A stretch of 64,000 nucleotides of DNA, taken from the NCBI GenBank assembly GCA_013215445.1, contig JABSRA010000013.1, forward strand, positions 5,722 to 69,721, in the 5' to 3' direction. Source of the stretch: Oceanospirillaceae bacterium (GTDB lineage: Bacteria; Pseudomonadota; Gammaproteobacteria; Pseudomonadales; Balneatricaceae). The first letter of the stretch is position 1. Every line of letters starts with the position of its first letter. Below the pieces are notes generated by a model. The model was not told the DNA's origin, ran no database searches, and saw only the letters and a program-made list of their open reading frames with translations. Shown piece after piece: positions 6,994-59,840 of the stretch. The translations under genes were made by a program, and so were the position numbers.

Positions 6994-7764
6994 TTAATCA
7001 GTAAAAACAAAAGAGCGGAAATTTTCTAAAGCATCCTGCGTCACTAACGTATTAATATCGATCAACTCTAGGTTTTCGTCTAAACATTTATCGTATATTG
7101 ACAGTACATCGATGATGCCCTGCATGCTAGACAGGCGTGTATCAGGGTCAAGTAATGGCGCATGGGTAGATAGATACAATACCGGTTTATGTTCTTGCAA
7201 ATAGGCTTTTAAGCTGGGCATTAGCTGGTATTCACCACCTTCGATATCTATTTTCATGAAATCTATGTGCTTAACCGGAGAGATATCCAAAAACTGTTGC
7301 CACGCCATGGTGAGTACATCAACGCCGCTGCTCTCATTGTCAAACAACAGACTGGTCATACTATCCCCAGGTTTACCTCGATGGCTAGCCATACGCGAAA
7401 TAGACATCGTCTCTGCCAGCGCTAAACTATATGAACTGACATTTTTAAGCTTATTTAAATCGATATTCCAACGCAAGTAACGATAGGCAGTTGGATCCGG
7501 TTCAAAACATATTACCTTTTTCGCCAACTGAGCCGCGTATAATACAGTGGGACCTATCCAGGCCCCTATGTCACAATAGTGACTATCTGCATGCAAATAA
7601 TGGGCGAGAATTTTGTAGGTATTAGGCTCCCAAGTGCCGGATGCTGCCTTGCGCCAAAAATCCACATGATAGGGATCTACTTTAAAATCATAACCTGCGA
7701 TATTTACATCCATATATCCTTTAACCAAATACCCATTTTGCAACGCAATTTCTCTATCGTCCAT
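6994..7764 (-). CDS. FkbM-family SAM-dependent methyltransferase
   Basis: A 256-residue class I methyltransferase. Motif I is CDIGAWIGP (about 64-72), followed by the acidic ribose-binding residue in CFEPDP (E88) and the FkbM signature KIDIEGGE (171-178). FkbM proteins usually O-methylate sugars or polyketides. No glycosyltransferase or polyketide gene lies nearby, so the substrate is unknown. AGGAG sits about 8 bases before the ATG, supporting this start. The gene appears monocistronic, flanked by tandem-repeat-bearing spacers. Confidence 0.85.
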   Translation of the reverse strand: MDDREIALQNGYLVKGYMDVNIAGYDFKVDPYHVDFWRKAASGTWEPNTYKILAHYLHADSHYCDIGAWIGPTVLYAAQLAKKVICFEPDPTAYRYLRWNIDLNKLKNVSSYSLALAETMSISRMASHRGKPGDSMTSLLFDNESSGVDVLTMAWQQFLDISPVKHIDFMKIDIEGGEYQLMPSLKAYLQEHKPVLYLSTHAPLLDPDTRLSSMQGIIDVLSIYDKCLDENLELIDINTLVTQDALENFRSFVFTD

Positions 7765-46979: not shown

Positions 46980-48119
46980 TTACAAAAGCTTACGCGCCGC
47001 TAAATTACGCATCAAGTGACTGGCAGAAAATACCCAAGGCGCACACAAGGTTGATAAATTCACAGTGTTGCTCAAACAACCAAATTTTTCACTACTGATA
47101 TGTACCTGATCACCCAGCTTATGAGTAAAGCCTTCTCCCACTTTATCTCTGTCTTGCGTGGGGGAGAATAAGGTGCCTAAAAACAGCATAAATCCATCGG
47201 GGTACTGGTGATGATCGCCGCAGGTCTGCTTAACTAAGTCCAGTGGATCGCGACTAATTTGAGACATGCAACTGTGCCCTTTAAGCTCAAAGCCATCCAC
47301 ACCTTTAACAGTTAAAGCTAGCTCGGCATTTCGCACATCTTCAATGCTGAAGTGTTGATCAAACAGACGAATAAAGGGGCCTATCGAGCAAGAGGCATTG
47401 TTATCTTTTGCTTTACCTAACAGCAACGCTGAGCGCCCTTCAATATCCCTTAAATTAACATCATTGCCCAGCGTAGCCCCTTGCACTTTTCCTTGCGAAT
47501 TAACCGCCAATACCACCTCAGGTTCTGGATTATTCCAATGCGAGCTGGGATGCAAACCAACTTCTGCGCCTGAACCTACGGCAGAAAGCGGCTGGGATTT
47601 TGTGAAAACCTCAGCATCTGGGCCTATCCCCACCTCCAAATATTGAGACCAAAGACCCTCGCCAATCAGCGCTTTTTTTACCCGCTGTGCCTGCTCACTG
47701 CCCGGGACTGTATCACTTAAGTTGCTACCTATTAATGCCGTAATACGGGAGCGTATTTTGGTCGCTTGGGCTGGATCTCCGCCCGCCCGCTCTTCAATCA
47801 TTCGCTCGATCATAGAGTTTGCAAACGTCACCCCACAAGCCTTAATCGCTTGTAAATCACAGGGGGCTAATAATCTAACCCCTTGCACCTTTGCCTTACA
47901 AATCTGTTCAACATCACCGAGATCTTCTCCACCGGCAGCTTTTAGATAGGAGACAGGATCATCAAGCTCCAGTAAATCTCTGACGGTAGGTACCTCAGGC
48001 GAGGTAATATCAAACATCCGAGCACTGCGAATTACACAGAGGCTAGGTCCTTTTAAATCCTCTCTAAATACACGGGCGATTAGATTCGCACTTTCGCTGT
48101 CTAAAGGTAAGCTACTCAT
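46980..48119 (-). CDS. FAH-family dehydratase, XylX-like (2-keto-3-deoxy-pentonate dehydratase candidate)
   Basis: 379 residues from the ATG at 48119 (MSSLPLDSES), which has AAGG 7 bases upstream; the frame extends nine codons further. The core SHWNNPEPEVVL, TLGNDVNLRDIEGRSALLL and KAKDNNASCSIGPF carries the FAH metal-binding acidic residues, and the end LMRNLAARKLL matches Caulobacter XylX as I recall it. XylX converts 2-keto-3-deoxy-D-xylonate to 2-oxoglutarate semialdehyde in the Weimberg pathway. It is the last gene of the block that begins with the amidohydrolase and ABC transporter. No other Weimberg gene is here, so the exact substrate is open. Confidence 0.75.
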   Translation of the reverse strand: MSSLPLDSESANLIARVFREDLKGPSLCVIRSARMFDITSPEVPTVRDLLELDDPVSYLKAAGGEDLGDVEQICKAKVQGVRLLAPCDLQAIKACGVTFANSMIERMIEERAGGDPAQATKIRSRITALIGSNLSDTVPGSEQAQRVKKALIGEGLWSQYLEVGIGPDAEVFTKSQPLSAVGSGAEVGLHPSSHWNNPEPEVVLAVNSQGKVQGATLGNDVNLRDIEGRSALLLGKAKDNNASCSIGPFIRLFDQHFSIEDVRNAELALTVKGVDGFELKGHSCMSQISRDPLDLVKQTCGDHHQYPDGFMLFLGTLFSPTQDRDKVGEGFTHKLGDQVHISSEKFGCLSNTVNLSTLCAPWVFSASHLMRNLAARKLL

Positions 48120-48155
48120 TTTTAAACCTTCTTTATTCATGAACATTGAACATTA

Positions 48156-48953
48156 CTAGGAAAATATTATATCAACTAGCTCAGAGCGCGGCTCTGCCAG
48201 TGGCTGTAACACACTTATATGATGAGCAGCTTTTACTACGGTTAATTTCCCACCACTGCAGGATTTCATCATTTGGGCTTGGCGATGAAACTCTGCGCTC
48301 TCATTTTCGCCCACCACTAAATGCAATTTAAAAGGTAATTGCTCAGCAGCTTTTACCAGTGAATAATGCTCTATTTCGGCTGTAGTTAACTTAAGCTGCT
48401 GTTGCAAAAAAGAAAATTTTAGCGGTGCTAAGTCATAGAGGCCACTAATACTGACCACCGAATGTAGCTGCTCACTGATCTCTGCCTGTAACGCACCCGC
48501 AATTGCCAAATGACCGCCTGCGGAGTGGCCTATCAATAACAGTTTTGCCCCGCTCTGACAGTACTTTTCAACTAAAAAAGACAGCGCGCGAGCCACATCG
48601 TCAACCACTTCGGCCAAACGCACTTCCGGCATTAACCGGTATTCGACATTCGCCACCAGCGATCCTATATGCTGCAAGCCCGGTATGGTAAATCTATGCT
48701 CAGACGCCTCAAGTGCTCGCCAGTATCCGCCATGAATAAATACCGGAATAATAGCGGTACCACTCTCGCCAAATGTTTCAACAAACTGCCGCGGATGAGC
48801 TGCGTATGGATGATGGGTCGCACGCTGATTTCTACTTAACAGCGCACTTTGCTGCTTATTCCAATCCAGACTCTGCTCAAAATCTTGCAAGATGGCGGAA
48901 AATTTAAATTGGCTGTCCCAGTAGGATATTTTTTGCTCATTCACGATTTTCAC
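48156..48953 (-). CDS. Alpha/beta hydrolase (kynurenine-formamidase-like)
   Basis: 265 residues from a GTG at 48953, overlapping the IclR-type gene by 17 bases. It has the oxyanion motif HGGYW and the nucleophile elbow LIGHSAGGH, with the His in VKAAHHISVL near the end; this HGGYW/GHSAGG pair is typical of the arylformamidase-like esterases. Catalytic Ser, Asp and His look complete. The natural ester or amide is unknown, but placement between regulator and FAH-family gene suggests it acts in the same catabolic route as the transporter. Confidence 0.8.
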   Translation of the reverse strand: MKIVNEQKISYWDSQFKFSAILQDFEQSLDWNKQQSALLSRNQRATHHPYAAHPRQFVETFGESGTAIIPVFIHGGYWRALEASEHRFTIPGLQHIGSLVANVEYRLMPEVRLAEVVDDVARALSFLVEKYCQSGAKLLLIGHSAGGHLAIAGALQAEISEQLHSVVSISGLYDLAPLKFSFLQQQLKLTTAEIEHYSLVKAAEQLPFKLHLVVGENESAEFHRQAQMMKSCSGGKLTVVKAAHHISVLQPLAEPRSELVDIIFS

Positions 48954-49581
48954 TCTGCTCTAGTACCTCTTTTAAACGCTGCTGTGCTTCTTGCAGCCAC
49001 TGGGTCACATTGAGCGCACAAGCTTTATTGATCAACACCCCCACTACCACCCACTCACCTTGAAGGTTTTTCTCTATGGGCAAATACAGACAGTTAAAGG
49101 CGGGAGTTACTTCAAAATCTGCACTGTTAAGCACTAAGCTGAGTTTTGATAACTCACCTTCTCGGCTGCTGCGACTGATCACATAACCACTGCTATTTCC
49201 CGGGTATAAGTAGTTTGCTCCCCTTCCCAAAGAAAAGGGCCCTACCCACAATTTTCCCAGTTGCAGAGCCCCTATAAACGCAGTGCACTGGCTGTTTTGT
49301 CGCAGCCGATTTAATACCGGTTCACTGGCATAACCCAGCCCCCCGACGCCCCATGCGTTTAATCCCACTTGTAGCACCTGTGCACCTCTCACCCATTCTC
49401 CCGCACCATCTCGGTTGAGAAAGCCCTGGGTTTCCATTGCTTTAATCATCCGATAACCACTACTAGGTGACAGCTGGCAAGCTTTTGAAAGCGAGCGCGC
49501 ACTTTGATGCGGGTAGCGCACCACTTCCTCTAACACCCGGGTAATTTGTGCGATTGCCTTAGTATAAGGATCACTCGTCAT
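48937..49581 (-). CDS. IclR-type transcriptional regulator, short form
   Basis: 214 residues. The N-terminal winged helix (about 8-75) reads SARSLSKACQLSPSSGYRMIKAMETQGFL. The remaining 140 residues resemble a shortened IclR effector domain (FNCLYLPIEKNLQGEWVVVGVLI). IclR proteins normally have about 250-280 residues, so this one is compact. It lies 47 bases after the chimeric regulator and overlaps the hydrolase gene. Regulation of the local operon is likely. Confidence 0.75.
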   Translation of the reverse strand: MTSDPYTKAIAQITRVLEEVVRYPHQSARSLSKACQLSPSSGYRMIKAMETQGFLNRDGAGEWVRGAQVLQVGLNAWGVGGLGYASEPVLNRLRQNSQCTAFIGALQLGKLWVGPFSLGRGANYLYPGNSSGYVISRSSREGELSKLSLVLNSADFEVTPAFNCLYLPIEKNLQGEWVVVGVLINKACALNVTQWLQEAQQRLKEVLEQSENRE

Positions 49582-49628: not shown

Positions 49629-51035
49629 TTAATTTAAAGGCCACAAAATATCGCCACCGGTTAATACGTCTCGCAAATATTTATCGTTATATATCTTTAA
49701 ACTCGGTCCTTGAGAGAGCACAACATCGTCTGGCAAATCCCAGCGCACATGTCGTTCTGCCCATTCATCGGCCTTGATTGAGGCTGTTTCGCAGTGCCTT
49801 GAGGCGACAAAGTTCAACGCCACTTCCAAGCGTTTAGGCACTACCTTTCCCGCTAAGATAGACAGTGCAATCTCTATCGCTCTGCCGCCCATCGCCGCTG
49901 GGTAGTCCGCCGCAAAAAAAGGTATTTTATGGTGAATTGCCAACTTATACATTTTGTTTAAATCGCCACCCGTATGGGCAGGAACGCCCTGTCGATGTTC
50001 AACAAACGCCGCAATAGAACCGACACCTTGCAAACCACTATCACACCAGACACCGTCTGGAATTTGAGCTTTATCCTGCAGCAATTGCCGCACATGCTCT
50101 CGACCAGCGCTCTCATCCCATTGACTATTAATAACTGCCTCTAAATGAATATCGGGGTAGCGGGCAAAGACTTCCAGCGCCGCGCTCTGCCTTTTCATCG
50201 CCGGACTCGCTTGGGCAGGACCAGACATCATCCACACCCGACCACTGCCCTGTAAATGCTCTGCAAGCCACTGCGCACTGCTACGTCCAATGGTCGAATC
50301 AGATGCTGTCACAAAGCTGACAAATGCCTTGGGATCTACCGGTCTTCGGTCAACCGCAACTACCGCAATACCCATTTGAATGGCAGCGCGCAACTGCTTG
50401 GCCAGTACTTCATCATCTGACTGCGCTGGGCTGACCAACAAAATATCGATCCCCGATGTTATTAATTGTTCGATTTGCTGCACTTGGCGCACTGCGCTAT
50501 CTTCGGCGTGTTTCACTTCCAAACTGGCAATTTCTGCACTGTGCAAGTTAGCGGCATACAAGGTATTACACACCAACGCCACTCGCCACGCATTGGACAT
50601 AGAGGCATTTGAAAAACCAATTTTGTAGGGAGGCGCTTTTACAAATTGCTCGGTGGTGACAGATTCCAAAAGATCTCGACTCCACTCGCCAGTTTCCATG
50701 TGGGTGCGACCAGCATAGATATTTTCAGCTACAGCTTGAGTGCTGAACGAGCGCCCTTGAAAACGAATTCCCAAAGGGCTGAACATTAACGCTTTCGCCC
50801 CCGGCCCCAACTTGACCCACCCCTGATCAACTCGCTCTAACAAGGCCGCTTTTACCAAGTGACGGATCAGCGCAAACCCAGTGGTTCTACCTATCCCAGT
50901 ACTGGCAAGTAATGCATGCACCGCCAGTGGTCTATTGGCATGGTCAAAGGCGGCCAATATCGCCATTATCCGCTCCACATTAGAGCATGGTAACAGCGCT
51001 TTAACACTTTGATCTTTACTCACTATTGATGACAT
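49629..51035 (-). CDS. Chimeric regulator: IclR-like HTH fused to a sugar-binding-protein domain
   Basis: 468 residues, no signal peptide, so cytoplasmic. Residues about 17-85 form an IclR-like winged helix (NVERIMAILAAFDHANRPLAV, TGFALIRHLVKAALLERV). From about 137 to 445 it is a type 1 periplasmic-binding domain that aligns without large gaps to the operon's own binding protein: YKIGFSNASMSNAWRVA against YTIGFSNASISNPWRVA, SFVTASD in both, PAHTGGDLNKMYKL against PPHTGGDFNAMYQL. It probably represses or activates the operon on binding the transported ligand. It lies 7 bases after the second permease gene. I know of no named family with this order of domains. Confidence 0.88.
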   Translation of the reverse strand: MSSIVSKDQSVKALLPCSNVERIMAILAAFDHANRPLAVHALLASTGIGRTTGFALIRHLVKAALLERVDQGWVKLGPGAKALMFSPLGIRFQGRSFSTQAVAENIYAGRTHMETGEWSRDLLESVTTEQFVKAPPYKIGFSNASMSNAWRVALVCNTLYAANLHSAEIASLEVKHAEDSAVRQVQQIEQLITSGIDILLVSPAQSDDEVLAKQLRAAIQMGIAVVAVDRRPVDPKAFVSFVTASDSTIGRSSAQWLAEHLQGSGRVWMMSGPAQASPAMKRQSAALEVFARYPDIHLEAVINSQWDESAGREHVRQLLQDKAQIPDGVWCDSGLQGVGSIAAFVEHRQGVPAHTGGDLNKMYKLAIHHKIPFFAADYPAAMGGRAIEIALSILAGKVVPKRLEVALNFVASRHCETASIKADEWAERHVRWDLPDDVVLSQGPSLKIYNDKYLRDVLTGGDILWPLN

Positions 51036-51042
51036 CGTTTGC

Positions 51043-52014
51043 TTAATCTCTAGATTTAGACAAGTACACTGCGGCCGCGAGAATAATCAAGGTCCCTTTG
51101 ATGACTAACTGAAACTCAACCGATAACCCCAGTATCACTACGATATTGAACAGCGACACTAAAATCAAGGTCGCCAACAATACCCCGGCCACACTCCCTT
51201 TACCGCCACGCAGTGAAGCGCCGCCAATAACCGCAGCGGCAATGCTATCTAACGCGTATCCCTGCCCGGTCCAGTTATCGACAATACCGACATAACCCAC
51301 TAAAAATAACCCCGCCAGCGCGGCCAACACTCCAGATATCACAAACACGATCATTTGTATTTTGCGCACAGGGACGCCGCTCATGTAAGCACTTTGTGGG
51401 TTATCGCCAAACAGGCGTATCTGATAGCCAAATTTGCTGCGCATTAACAGCCAGTAAATAGCCACTGCCACGACAGCCAGTATTATCAGGGAGACGGGTA
51501 TCCCCGCTATATCTCCAGTGGCCAACCAGCGGAAGGTCTCTGGCAGAGACCCTCCAGGTGCACCTTTGGTGTAGGCAAAGCGAATCCCCTGTAACACAAT
51601 CATGGTCGCCAGCGTCGCCAAAAATGGGGTCACACCGCGATATGCCACTAAATAGCCATTCACGGCACCCACCACAAAACCTACGCCCAGCGCGAGTATC
51701 ACAATACTGACAATGCTGTCATTGGCACCAATGGAAAGCACTGCGGCTGTCGCCATAATAGAAGCAACCGATAAGTCTAAGCCACGCACCACAATAACTA
51801 ACATCTGACCTAGCACCACAAAACCTAAAGGTGCCGCTTGCACTAAGATATCACTGAGATTATCCAGTGATAAGAAACGTGGCGATAACAGTGCGGTCAC
51901 CCCCCAAATCAGCACTAAGAACACAGTTAACAACAACAGCTCTCTAAGCTGGCGCCCCGCGACTGTTTGTGTTCGTAGCAGATCAAGAAAACTATTATTT
52001 AAAAGCGCTTTCAT
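51043..52014 (-). CDS. Sugar-type ABC transporter permease (RbsC/XylH-like), second
   Basis: 323 residues from the ATG at 52014, which overlaps the previous stop as ATGA; a longer frame to 52077 would lie inside the first permease gene. About ten membrane helices; the family block AAVIGGASLRGGKGSVAGVLLA is clear. It forms, with the first permease, the inner-membrane channel of the importer. Confidence 0.92.
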   Translation of the reverse strand: MKALLNNSFLDLLRTQTVAGRQLRELLLLTVFLVLIWGVTALLSPRFLSLDNLSDILVQAAPLGFVVLGQMLVIVVRGLDLSVASIMATAAVLSIGANDSIVSIVILALGVGFVVGAVNGYLVAYRGVTPFLATLATMIVLQGIRFAYTKGAPGGSLPETFRWLATGDIAGIPVSLIILAVVAVAIYWLLMRSKFGYQIRLFGDNPQSAYMSGVPVRKIQMIVFVISGVLAALAGLFLVGYVGIVDNWTGQGYALDSIAAAVIGGASLRGGKGSVAGVLLATLILVSLFNIVVILGLSVEFQLVIKGTLIILAAAVYLSKSRD

Positions 52015-52994
52015 TTTTTTGATCTCCCCACTAACACCGATACGGCACAGATAATGATCAAGCCCTCGACAATCCACTGATAAAAGCTCGATACGTTCAT
52101 CAAATTGAGTGCATTGGCCAGCAATGACAACAAAATAACCGCCAGCGCGGTACCTAGTACCCCGCCAAAACCTCCCGCCAGTAAAGTGCCACCGACAATC
52201 ACCGGGGTGATAGAGCGCAAGTCAAAACCCACCCCTGCTCTGGGATCCCCGACGCCAAAGCGACCCACCATGTAAATAGCCGCGAGGGCTGCAAGCAGAC
52301 CGGACACTGCGTAGACTAGCACTTTGGTCTGTTTAACCGGCACTCCCGAAATTTGTGCCGCCACTTCATTGTTGCCAATCGCATAGAGACGTATCCCAAA
52401 ATTACTGCGCCAAAGCATAAAGGCCGTCAGTGCATATAGGCAGATCACAAAAATAAAGCCACAGGGGACACCTGCTATGCGTGCGTAAACCACATCTTCA
52501 AAAAACAGCGCCACAGATCCACTGGGCTGATTAGAATGAAGCAGCGCAAGGCCGGTAAGAACAGTCGAGGTGCCTAGTGTGACAATAAATGGATGTACTC
52601 CAACATAGGCGGTGATAACACCGTTAATCCCCCCTAAGAACGCACCAAGCGCCAAAGTCGCCGCTATCGCCAGCGCCAGCGTCTGTGTATCTTGCGCATT
52701 GAAACCCGCAAAAAATACACAGAGTAATCCAAGCATCCCCGCGAACGACAGATCTATGCCACCACTTAGTATCACTAGTGTCTGTGCCAGCGCTATTATC
52801 GCCAGTACCACTAACTGATCTTGTACATTGAAAATATTGGCGAGCGTGGCAAAGCGTTCTGAACCAATACTGCCCAGCGCAAATACCATTAAAATCAAGC
52901 CGATGATCACCCAGTGCAGCGACTCAAACCGCGTCGCCCTCGCCCACGTTTTTAGTGTCGCTTTAAAGCTGCGACCTTGATCTATACTGATCAT
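52011..52994 (-). CDS. Sugar-type ABC transporter permease (RbsC/XylH-like), first
   Basis: 327 residues, nine to ten hydrophobic helices. Family blocks are LVILSGGIDLSFAGMLGL, YAIGNNEVAAQISGVPV (coupling helix) and PVIVGGTLLAGGFGGVLGTALA. It lies 19 bases after the ATPase gene and is coupled to the second permease by ATGA. Two different permeases point to a heterodimeric channel, as in several sugar-acid and autoinducer-type importers. Confidence 0.93.
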   Translation of the reverse strand: MISIDQGRSFKATLKTWARATRFESLHWVIIGLILMVFALGSIGSERFATLANIFNVQDQLVVLAIIALAQTLVILSGGIDLSFAGMLGLLCVFFAGFNAQDTQTLALAIAATLALGAFLGGINGVITAYVGVHPFIVTLGTSTVLTGLALLHSNQPSGSVALFFEDVVYARIAGVPCGFIFVICLYALTAFMLWRSNFGIRLYAIGNNEVAAQISGVPVKQTKVLVYAVSGLLAALAAIYMVGRFGVGDPRAGVGFDLRSITPVIVGGTLLAGGFGGVLGTALAVILLSLLANALNLMNVSSFYQWIVEGLIIICAVSVLVGRSKK

Positions 52995-53013: not shown

Positions 53014-54582
53014 TCATATCGGAGCCTGCGTACTGCTTATGGATTTTACATTCACGCATTGAACCTCGATATCTAATGGCTGCTGTTCGCTATCATCTGC
53101 AGCGGCAACCGACATAATGTTATCTTCACTGATTTCATCTGCTTGTAACTGCGCGGCAATGGCACCATCGCGCATTACACAAACACGATCGCAGAGCCCA
53201 ACTATTTCTATCAGCTCCGAAGAGATTACTAAAATAGCCAAGCCACTATTGGCCAGAGCACGTAAATGACGGTAAATTTCCGCCTTAGCGCCAACGTCCA
53301 CACCACGGGTAGGCTCATCCAAAATCAACACCTTAGGCTGGTTTTCCAGTAACCGACCCAATAATATTTTTTGCTGATTGCCACCGGAGAGATGACTGAT
53401 AGGTAAACCTAAGTCGTCGACCACTACATTAAATTGTGCTACCACTGTTGCACTGCGCTGCGCCGCTAAGTCAGTCGCTATGTTAAAGTCACTCGCCCCT
53501 TTACTAATGGTGCTACTTATATAGTTGTGTGCCACACTAGATTGAGCAAACAGCCCGTCGGTTTTTCGCCCTTCGGTCAACATGGCTATCCCGGCTGAAA
53601 GACACTTGCTAGGCGTGCGTTTGCCAAGTTCCCTGCCCTCTAATAACACTCTGCCAGTAGCCGCTCTAGCGCCGTATATAGATTGGGCCAGTTCAGTGCG
53701 CCCAGAGCCTACCAAACCGGCAATGCCCAGTATTTCGCCGCGGTACAAACTCAAATCTACCGCTTGATCAAAGCTATTATTGCGTAGTTGTTGCAGCTCT
53801 AAAACCACTTCGCTAAGACGCTCAATGGACGCTTTTGGCGGAAACATATCGCCCAGTTCACGCCCCACCATTGCCGCAATAATCTTTTGCTGGTCATAAT
53901 CAGCAATCGGACCCGCAGAAGTCACCACACCGTCTTTGATGACCGCTATATCGGTACATATTTCGAATATTTCGTCCAAGCGGTGAGATACATAGACGAT
54001 TGCCAAGCCTTTTAATCGCAAAGCATTAATGATTTTAAATAAGTGCTGGGTCTCCAGTTGCGAGAGCACCGCCGATGGCTCATCCAATATCAATACTTTG
54101 GCACTTGTGCGCAATGCCTTAGCAATTTCAACCATCTGAGATTGCGCAACACTCAACTGCGCCACTATTTGATCCGGGTCCAGTTGAATCTCTAACGAGT
54201 CCAGCAAATTGACAGTCTGAACACGTAGCTTTTTTCTATCGATGAGTCCCCATCGAGTGCGAGGCAGTGCCTCGATAAAGATGTTTTCGGCGACACTCAG
54301 AGCGCTCATGGTAGAAAATTCTTGATGCACTACCGCCACACCGGCATCAATCCCCTCGCTTGGGGTGCGCCAATTAACTTTCTCTGAGCAGAACTCAATA
54401 TGTCCCGAACTAGGCTGATAGAGCCCTGTCATCAATTTTATTAAGGTGGATTTACCGGCGCCGTTTTCCCCGCACAGCGCCACCGCAGCACCGGGATGCA
54501 CTTCAAACTCAATATCGCTGAGCACCTGGTTAGTACCAAATGACTTTGAGAGTTTGCGAGCGGCAAGAATGGCTTTAGACAT
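53014..54582 (-). CDS. Sugar-type ABC transporter ATPase (RbsA/XylG-like, two NBDs)
   Basis: 522 residues from the ATG at 54582; GGAG lies 6 bases before it, so the ATG four codons upstream is less likely. The first ATPase half has Walker A GENGAGKST, a signature-like LSVAQSQMVEIAKAL and Walker B VLILDEPS. The second half has the weak loop GLVGSGRTEL, then LSGGNQQKILLGRLL and VLILDEPTRGVDVG. This asymmetric tandem layout is typical of ribose, xylose and galactose importers. It energises the two permeases. Confidence 0.93.
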   Translation of the reverse strand: MSKAILAARKLSKSFGTNQVLSDIEFEVHPGAAVALCGENGAGKSTLIKLMTGLYQPSSGHIEFCSEKVNWRTPSEGIDAGVAVVHQEFSTMSALSVAENIFIEALPRTRWGLIDRKKLRVQTVNLLDSLEIQLDPDQIVAQLSVAQSQMVEIAKALRTSAKVLILDEPSAVLSQLETQHLFKIINALRLKGLAIVYVSHRLDEIFEICTDIAVIKDGVVTSAGPIADYDQQKIIAAMVGRELGDMFPPKASIERLSEVVLELQQLRNNSFDQAVDLSLYRGEILGIAGLVGSGRTELAQSIYGARAATGRVLLEGRELGKRTPSKCLSAGIAMLTEGRKTDGLFAQSSVAHNYISSTISKGASDFNIATDLAAQRSATVVAQFNVVVDDLGLPISHLSGGNQQKILLGRLLENQPKVLILDEPTRGVDVGAKAEIYRHLRALANSGLAILVISSELIEIVGLCDRVCVMRDGAIAAQLQADEISEDNIMSVAAADDSEQQPLDIEVQCVNVKSISSTQAPI

Positions 54583-54676
54583 AGCGTTCTCCAAACTTTT
54601 CAGGCAACTATCAGCGTATATTTCACACTGATAGTATTAATACGGCTCGCCTAGGCAAGCCGTTGATACACTATGC

Positions 54677-55962: not shown

Positions 55963-57222
55963 TTAGTGAGCCAGCATCACTCTTGGATCTTTGTAGAGCA
56001 CGCCATCTTTCATAATCATGCGAAGATTCTCGCGCTGCTGTAGCAGCGAGACATCTTGTGTAGGATCGCCTTTCACCAACAGCAAATCCGCCAAAAATCC
56101 TGGTTTAACTTGGCCTAAACGGGTACTTTCTCCCATCAATGCAGCGCCATTTAACGTGGCACACTGCAGCGCCTCAACGGGGGAGTATCCAAAGTAGCGG
56201 ACAAAGTGCTCAATATCGCGGGCGTTTTGCCCCATGGGAGTGACAGCAAAGCCATAATCACCGCCGACCACTAAACGCATCTTGCGCTCGCGCATCTTGT
56301 GGTAGGTGGCACAGCAAGTTTCAAATTTTCGGTACAGATCAAGTTGATTGCAAAGTTCGACACTAATCCCGGCCACTTCCCCTTCGTGCACACAATTGTG
56401 CACTAAGCCAAAAGCAGGGCCGACAAAGCAACTATCGCGAACCGACTCAAGCATATCTAGGGCTTCTTCGTCGGCAAAATCACAGTGGTAGATACACTCA
56501 ATGCCACTGCGTACCGCCATTTTTACGCTTTTAGAAGATCGCGCATGTGCGGCAATAGTCTTGCCGAAAGTTTTGGCAACACTGACCAGAGCACTGAGTT
56601 CATCCTCTTCCATCGGGGTAACTTCAGCGCGGGCGTGAGAGACAAACTCATCACCCGAGATATTGATTTTAATATTATCCACCCCGTCGCGGACACACTC
56701 GCGGGCAATACGGCGCATCTCTATGGGGCCATCCCCAATCAAACCAAAGCTCTCTTGATGCATAAAGCGACGTCGCTCGTCACCCAGACCTGCAGTAGTG
56801 GTGATTTCAGGGCTGGCAGCTCGCATCCGGGGCCCGATAATTAAGCCGCTCTCTATCGCATTTCTGGCCGTGACCCCCAGCAGCGGTTTAGCGGATGCCG
56901 CTTCAAAGACGGAAGTGAAACCGTGAGATAACAGCAACTCTAAATTTTTGGCTGTCAATAACATATGCTCTTCACTGGAGATACGCCCCAACTCAGCGGG
57001 CTCATTGATACCCACAAAACTTGGGTGCGCGTGACCTTCGACTAAACCCGGCATTAGCGTTAATCCATCCGCTTCAATGACTTCGCCCACAAAATCTAAA
57101 TCAGGCTGGCTCCCATCGCGAACACTGAGAATTTTATTACCCTCAATAATCACTGTGGCAGCATAAGTATCAGCTCTTATTCCATCCCAAACTTTAGCCC
57201 CCTGAATACATATTTTCGACAT
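55963..57222 (-). CDS. Metal-dependent amidohydrolase (imidazolonepropionase/prolidase-like)
   Basis: 419 residues. The amidohydrolase HxH pair is in VEGHAHPSF, later ligands in IAAHARSS and CIYHCDF, and the closing Asp in VVGGDYGFAVTP; composite beta-sandwich ends (KVWDG..., FLADLLLVKGDP) complete the fold. Such enzymes hydrolyse cyclic amides, dipeptides or lactone-like rings. It is the first gene of the minus-strand block, 122 bases before the binding-protein gene, so it probably acts on the imported compound or a product of it. Confidence 0.85.
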   Translation of the reverse strand: MSKICIQGAKVWDGIRADTYAATVIIEGNKILSVRDGSQPDLDFVGEVIEADGLTLMPGLVEGHAHPSFVGINEPAELGRISSEEHMLLTAKNLELLLSHGFTSVFEAASAKPLLGVTARNAIESGLIIGPRMRAASPEITTTAGLGDERRRFMHQESFGLIGDGPIEMRRIARECVRDGVDNIKINISGDEFVSHARAEVTPMEEDELSALVSVAKTFGKTIAAHARSSKSVKMAVRSGIECIYHCDFADEEALDMLESVRDSCFVGPAFGLVHNCVHEGEVAGISVELCNQLDLYRKFETCCATYHKMRERKMRLVVGGDYGFAVTPMGQNARDIEHFVRYFGYSPVEALQCATLNGAALMGESTRLGQVKPGFLADLLLVKGDPTQDVSLLQQRENLRMIMKDGVLYKDPRVMLAH

Positions 57223-57670
57223 GACAAGCTCCCGCTGTTTTTTAACAATGAGTAGAGGCTAACACGCAGAAAATAACTAAATAACGGGCAAACTCACGAA
57301 CCTGGCCCTTATACTGAACAAGTCCAAATTGTGGATCACATAAGTAGGGTTTTTACTGATTTATAATTTTTCATAGCACTACAGCAGGTAATATTTGACT
57401 CATATATCGGACTTATAAAAGACCAGAAAGGAAGAATGAGGATGCCTTTTGTTATGAGGTGATAACCCTGGAACTATCAATAAGCGCTTACTAGAATCAT
57501 CAATAAACCAATAATTTCACAACTAAGGAGTGATTAACCCACAGCGGTCAGATCGCTGAAAACAAGCCATTATGTAAATCACCAGTTCATCTTTATCAAT
57601 GTACAAACTAAGCAATTGATAGCTGGCAGTTCTAAATACCCCCTAGGATATTGGAGTATTGTTTGTGATT

Positions 57671-59048: not shown

Positions 59049-59840
59049 ATGAGCAATACCACCAGGGAAAAGGGTTCTTCAATTACCCGCGTATTACAGA
59101 TTATTGAGATAGTCTCTAAAGCTGATCGCCCAATGTCCCCCGCTGACTTGGCCTTCCACCTAAACATCCCCAAGCCCAGCATTCACCGTCTGCTCAATCA
59201 ACTGCAAGCTGAGAACTTCCTGCAGCTCAACATGCGTGGTTTGGTGGTGCCTGGCAATCGTATGCAGAGTATTGCCTTAGGCGTACTTTACAACAACCGC
59301 TTTAAAGCACTACGCCAGGCTATCTTAGCCCAACTAACCGATAAAATTGGCGAGACCTGCGGCATTTCCATCCCCAATGGCGCCGATATGATTTATTACG
59401 ACAGAGTACAAAATGCCAGTCCAGTCCAAGTACATCTACCCATTGGTAGTCATACCCCTATCGGCGCCACCGCCAGCGGTAAACTCTATTTGAGCACACT
59501 GTCTAAAACACGCTGTCAAAAAATCATTGAAAAAATGCCACTACAGCGCTACGCGAGAAACACTATTACCCAAGTTGATGTATTACACGCACAGATACAA
59601 CAGATAAAAGACGCTGGTATCGCCACTGATAATGAAGAGTTTATAGATGGGATGGTGGCTATTGCCGTGCCTATTCAAAATGCCCAGGGAAAATTATTTG
59701 CCTGTCTGTTTAGCCATGCACCGGTGATTCGGATGAGCTTAGCGCAATTACTTGAATTTTCCCCAGTGCTAAAACAGGCCGCTATCGAACTTGCTGAATT
59801 ACTCGATGATAGCTCTGCCAACCCTGAACAGCTCAACTAA
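59049..59840 (+). CDS. IclR-family transcriptional regulator
   Basis: 263 residues, the normal family length. The N-terminal winged helix (about 10-75) contains SPADLAFHLNIPKPSIHRLLNQLQ. The effector domain shows HLPIGSHTPIGATASGKLYLS and DNEEFIDGMVAIAVPIQN, the usual ligand-pocket blocks. It is convergent with the DadA-like gene and separated from the HNH-like gene by a divergent spacer. Targets unknown. Confidence 0.92.
   Translation: MSNTTREKGSSITRVLQIIEIVSKADRPMSPADLAFHLNIPKPSIHRLLNQLQAENFLQLNMRGLVVPGNRMQSIALGVLYNNRFKALRQAILAQLTDKIGETCGISIPNGADMIYYDRVQNASPVQVHLPIGSHTPIGATASGKLYLSTLSKTRCQKIIEKMPLQRYARNTITQVDVLHAQIQQIKDAGIATDNEEFIDGMVAIAVPIQNAQGKLFACLFSHAPVIRMSLAQLLEFSPVLKQAAIELAELLDDSSANPEQLN

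Follow-up and report, generated by a model that had tools for sequence, protein, structure and literature searches.

Several bacterial transcription factors are known that sense their ligands through a domain with the fold of a transport-associated binding protein, among them LacI, XylR, Btr, and SgrR. In the LacI/GalR repressors an N-terminal helix-turn-helix (HTH) precedes a cytoplasmic type-1 binding-protein sensor, and the LacI type is thought to have arisen long ago, when an HTH became joined to a binding protein. Escherichia coli XylR, the regulator of a sugar operon, carries a LacI/GalR-like sensor and a C-terminal AraC DNA-binding domain; Bacillus subtilis Btr combines an AraC domain with a FeuA-like domain, its sensor being a homolog of the binding protein that serves the transporter under its control; and E. 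coli SgrR joins an N-terminal winged helix to the solute-binding domain SBP_bac_5. Artificial counterparts have also been made: DNA-binding domains, including that of the IclR-family protein TtgV, have been fused to binding proteins to make benzoate sensors (PMC6079105).

Here, we analyze a 64,000-nucleotide stretch of DNA from an Oceanospirillaceae bacterium (herein referred to as the window) that encodes a different combination, an IclR-type winged helix (residues 20–69) followed by a linker (residues 70–125) and an RbsB-type solute-binding protein (SBP) domain (residues about 125–442). The gene lies in a minus-strand operon that begins with an amidohydrolase, a binding protein, an ATPase, and two permeases and continues past the regulator through a second winged-helix protein (wHTH2), an alpha/beta hydrolase, and an FAH-family protein (table 1). 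The plus strand is closed across the regulator gene, and the true start of the second permease is probably internal to its longest open reading frame. The complete operon recurs with the same gene order on a plasmid of Peteryoungia desertarenae, where the regulator is 50% identical to that of the window.

Table 1. Features of the regulator operon, in window coordinates.
Feature	Coordinates	Strand	Evidence
HTH-SBP regulator, 468 aa	49629–51035	minus	ORF, BLASTP, Pfam, hydropathy, AlphaFold2, hhalign, Foldseek
Partner wHTH2, 214 aa: IclR-like winged helix and linker with a shortened effector part	48937–49581	minus	Pfam, NCBIfam, hhalign; locus comparison
Periplasmic binding protein: signal peptide, Peripla_BP_4, hydrophobic N-terminus, 387 aa	54677–55840	minus	Pfam, hydropathy
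ABC ATPase, sugar-type (CUT2/RbsA-like)	53014–54594	minus	Pfam, NCBIfam
CUT2 permease 1	52011–52994	minus	Pfam, NCBIfam
CUT2 permease 2	51043–52077	minus	Pfam, NCBIfam; longest-ORF start overlaps permease 1
Amidohydrolase, Xaa-Pro dipeptidase / carboxypeptidase-like	55963–57222	minus	Pfam, NCBIfam
Alpha/beta hydrolase, esterase / kynurenine formamidase-like	48156–48953	minus	Pfam, NCBIfam
FAH-family protein, near 9kkt; distant 2-keto-3-deoxy-D-arabinonate dehydratase	46980–48146	minus	Pfam

The domain reading proposed by a first-pass annotation of this DNA, an IclR-like winged helix joined to a domain that aligns with the transporter's own binding protein, is borne out. Pfam places HTH_IclR (PF09339) on the N-terminal segment with 23.7 bits (cut-off 22) and Peripla_BP_4 (PF13407) at residues 139–397 (E 7e-35). 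Residues 117–442 are identical to the operon's binding protein at 144 of 329 aligned positions (44%; BLASTP E 3e-90), a similarity that, judged from the alignment, is far above chance and that spans all of the shared blocks previously pointed out (FSNAS-SN-WRVA, SFVTASD, DSGLQG-GSI-AF, HTGGD-N-MY, and DYP-AMG). The predicted loss of the secretion signal also holds: the HTH occupies the N-terminus, and no stretch resembling a signal peptide was found there, the maximal 15-residue Kyte-Doolittle hydropathy over the first 60 residues being 1.25, whereas the binding protein reaches 2.29. AlphaFold2, run on a four-row alignment, modeled the SBP domain with confidence (pLDDT mostly 70–95 over residues about 125–410), and its best solved structural matches in Foldseek are ribose-type binding proteins, 2ioy first. 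The same four-row model has low confidence in the N-terminal region, which follows the helix-helix-helix-strand-strand order of a winged helix. In hhalign, the fusions match the HTH of the E. coli IclR family over their N-terminal parts (96.6%).

The regulator is related to several described families without belonging to them. Like the IclR family (IclR, KdgR, and AllR) it possesses a winged helix, but the SBP domain replaces the IclR effector domain: IclR_C (PF01614) has no match in the regulator and Peripla_BP_4 stands in its place. A separate, full-length ordinary IclR-family gene (HTH_IclR plus IclR_C in Pfam) lies near the operon on the plus strand of the window (59049–59840). The regulator shares its domain order and cytoplasmic type-1 sensor with the LacI/GalR repressors but lacks their HTH and hinge, no LacI-type HTH model being among its Pfam matches. 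It shares a sensor of binding-protein fold with XylR, from which it differs in having an RbsB-type SBP and an N-terminal IclR HTH; no AraC HTH is among its Pfam matches either. Btr, with its siderophore-binding fold and AraC HTH, contrasts with the type-1 fold and IclR HTH found here. SgrR is similar in placing a winged helix ahead of a solute-binding domain, but that domain, SBP_bac_5, finds no match in the regulator, and we know of no wHTH2 partner of SgrR.

Protein and profile searches recovered 17 intact fusions, mostly alphaproteobacterial, including that of the window; the others come from Peteryoungia, Paracoccus pantotrophus, P. yeei, and 13 further genomes (G847, G1190, G1382, G1250, G1431, G1698, G1705, G1464, G1573, G1470, G1429, G1593, and G1510). 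With 1878 genomes sampled, the family counts at least 17 members. They are rare: the fusion of the window is the only one among 369 genomes of the window's own class, and nine were found among 397 genomes of one order. Each fusion scanned with Pfam has Peripla_BP_4 and, as its best HTH model, HTH_IclR, at modest scores of 14.9 to 31 bits, some of them under the cut-off. The viral collections contain no relative, and a scan of the genome contigs yielded as its sole match a distant Paenibacillus SBP.

The breadth of this set bears on whether the gene is dead or nonregulatory, for instance a binding protein in the cytosol whose HTH is decaying. One relative does show decay: genome G828 retains the transporter (SBP 82% identical) and the amidohydrolase, but its regulator is reduced to an HTH remnant (L043:2401–2868), at the expected site after the permease and with transposase sequence nearby. 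However, 17 intact members spread across several families, conservation of both pocket and operon position, and a dN/dS of 0.24 in one pair all speak against a dead or nonregulatory fusion, which we regard as very improbable.

The partner wHTH2 is encoded directly downstream of the regulator, or fused to it, in 17/17 loci. The two open reading frames can overlap by exactly 4 nt in eight of the 14 loci measured and lie within 14 nt in the others; the pair in the window is separated by 47 nt. On two Paracoccus plasmids, regulator and wHTH2 form a single 665-residue protein with two HTH_IclR matches; the nearest relative of this protein, in G1190, consists of two overlapping genes that are 60% and 46% identical to its halves. 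With a dN/dS of 0.24 between the two Paracoccus species, the fused frame is under purifying selection. The wHTH2 protein resembles the IclR HTH, linker, and start of the effector domain, and in hhalign it matches the IclR profile (97.6%) over these parts only, the match stopping about 110 residues in; its AlphaFold2 model has a pLDDT of 35. It is absent from operons of the same SBP family that lack the fusion, one of which (L030) has just an ordinary IclR gene.

Gene fusion and linkage are strong evidence that the regulator and wHTH2 work together, and we infer that they form one complex. Alternatively, the HTH-SBP protein could be the whole regulator, a homo-oligomer like LacI, with wHTH2 an independent IclR-type regulator that serves a different promoter and simply accompanies it. 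Each protein does have a winged helix of its own, and IclR-family proteins are usually self-sufficient homo-oligomers; we nonetheless consider this rather unlikely, since wHTH2 is adjacent in every locus, usually with overlap, is covalently fused in Paracoccus, and has a shortened effector part. A two-subunit IclR-type regulator of an unnamed class, in which the sensor on one winged helix is a binding protein captured from a transporter and the other winged helix carries a shortened IclR body, the two forming a coupled pair that becomes a single pseudo-dimeric chain in Paracoccus, is a more specific proposal that might prove right or wrong with about equal chance.

Phylogenetic analysis places the origin of the sensor among transporter proteins. 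In a tree that took 16 of the 17 intact regulators, their SBP domains form one clade (support 97/99), nested in the window-type binding-protein subfamily (100/99) and distinct from PurR, RbsR, and another LacI-type protein; smaller sequence sets agree. Common origin with the clade of cognate binding proteins was not rejected by the approximately unbiased (AU) test (p 0.33). The sensor lies nearer to the binding proteins of this transporter than to LacI, which bears out that part of the earlier suggestion. Membership in the LacI family was rejected on the missing LacI HTH, the placement in the tree, and the AU test of a grouping with LacI-type proteins (p 0.0095).

The same annotation went further and called the sensor a copy of the binding protein encoded in the operon itself, or its recent relative, and here the tree disagrees. 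A recent duplication onto an HTH would agree with the 44% identity and shared blocks, but an AU test rejected a sister pairing of the window's regulator with its binding protein (p 9e-9), the 16 regulators form one clade, and relatives occur that have no such SBP nearby. The duplication is accordingly barely credible, being refuted by the tree barring strong rate artefacts. The single clade and the AU results point instead to one old fusion and no fresh copy, and on the tree topology the regulators are best described as having diversified from that single event.

A second, different fusion adjoins sister operons of the window-type binding-protein family: a protein of about 580 residues with a winged helix and SBP_bac_1 (MalE-type), on the minus strand of a Rhizobium indicum plasmid (L031:5877–7622), annotated as an extracellular solute-binding protein. 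It has homologs at L063:8694–10436, L065:4973–6754, and L066:5271–7094, was found in 34 plasmid records including Phaeobacter, and looks like an independent conversion of a binding protein into a regulator.

The first-pass annotation had also supposed that importer and gene switch recognize the same ligand through homologous pockets. We mapped through the alignment 15 positions that we take to be the ligand site of E. coli RbsB. At 14 of them the window regulator has the same residue as the window binding protein, compared with 42% of positions elsewhere, and the two pockets likewise agree at 14/15 in Peteryoungia, so that a shared ligand is the simplest reading in both operons. The supposition does not extend to a general rule. 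Window-type (class A) transporters occur at two of the 17 loci, a class-B SBP at about eight, CUT1-like transporters at about three, and none nearby at about four, the class at some loci being judged from BLAST matches or ORF reading. Class-B binding proteins match the window pocket at 7–9/15 positions, those of the class found beside the Paracoccus, G1190, G1698, and G1464 regulators at 8–9/15, and binding proteins of sister operons at 8–14/15, whereas the pockets of 14 of the 16 regulators equal that of the window binding protein at 12–15. These counts indicate that the regulators kept one pocket while the neighboring transporters changed.

Conservation of the regulator pocket whatever the neighboring SBP, together with retention of the amidohydrolase, the most constant enzyme neighbor (12/17 loci), as transporters vary, is also what would be seen if the regulator sensed a metabolite of the amidohydrolase pathway and not the transporter ligand, its likeness to the window SBP reflecting common ancestry. 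The pocket agreement in the window and Peteryoungia counts against this, and we rate it as possible, if on the doubtful side. Given the constancy of the amidohydrolase, its pathway may include the ligand, and the FAH-type dehydratases and sugar-type transporters suggest a sugar or sugar-acid derivative; similarity to the ribose, galactofuranose, and xylose binding proteins is distant in every case.

A search for an operator motif common to the loci found none. A clear array occurs only in G1190, where three exact copies of GAATATTC and one of GACTATTC are spaced 18–22 bp apart in the intergenic region L059:10743–10918, with the regulator on one side and a divergent aldehyde dehydrogenase/transport operon on the other; none of 20,000 mononucleotide shuffles reached three copies. 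In G1382, a 28-bp near-perfect palindrome, CCATATTTCGGATTAGTCCGAAATATGG, lies between a divergent LacI-type regulator and the amidohydrolase (L060, about 7724–7751). The array and the palindrome are single-locus observations. The window itself has a pair of imperfect direct repeats, 16 nt each and 23 bp apart (57468–57506), roughly 250–285 bp upstream of the amidohydrolase start.

We think it probable that the HTH-SBP protein acts in the cytoplasm as a ligand-responsive transcription factor that, with its wHTH2 partner, controls the catabolic and uptake operon. An ancestral RbsB-type binding protein would have lost its signal peptide and been joined once to an IclR-type winged helix, after which the regulator would have diversified as a family of its own. 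It would be co-produced with wHTH2, a shortened IclR-family protein, the pair probably acting as one regulator (a hetero-oligomer, or one polypeptide in Paracoccus). The cleft of the SBP domain would bind a small molecule that the operon handles, probably a sugar or sugar-acid derivative, and closure of the cleft would shift the paired winged helices and alter their grip on an operator, with a sign of control that might be either. This operator would govern the amidohydrolase/transporter/hydrolase operon and, with it, the genes for the regulator itself; their position inside the operon that they likely control suggests autoregulation.

Since it lacks the HTH and the tree position that define LacI and the IclR_C domain that defines IclR, we class the protein among the one-component regulators with a binding-protein sensor. 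Pfam has no named family for the combination of an IclR HTH with Peripla_BP_4, in NCBIfam neither the regulator nor the binding protein falls in a named family (every match is far under cut-off), and no description of such a regulator was found in the open-access papers searched. The family, with its wHTH2 partner, hence appears to be undescribed, as first suspected. We propose to define it by an IclR HTH joined to a window-type SBP domain with an adjacent or fused wHTH2, a combination found in 17/17 loci. Three features set it apart from the LacI/GalR repressors: its HTH, a sensor in a transporter-SBP subfamily and not with LacI, PurR, and RbsR, and the constant wHTH2 neighbor. It represents a joining separate from that of LacI and apparently younger.

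The HTH-SBP family offers a probable example of a transport protein turned gene switch, and because relatives of the ancestral binding protein survive (44% identical, and encoded in the same operon in two genomes), the path from importer to switch is open to direct study. Heteromeric action, which is not usual for IclR proteins, is suggested by the invariable presence of a second winged helix. Engineering of fusions between DNA-binding domains and binding proteins has been found hard (PMC6079105); in contrast to those synthetic chimeras, the HTH-SBP regulators are natural, evolved, and accompanied by a partner protein, and they provide natural models for biosensors of this design.
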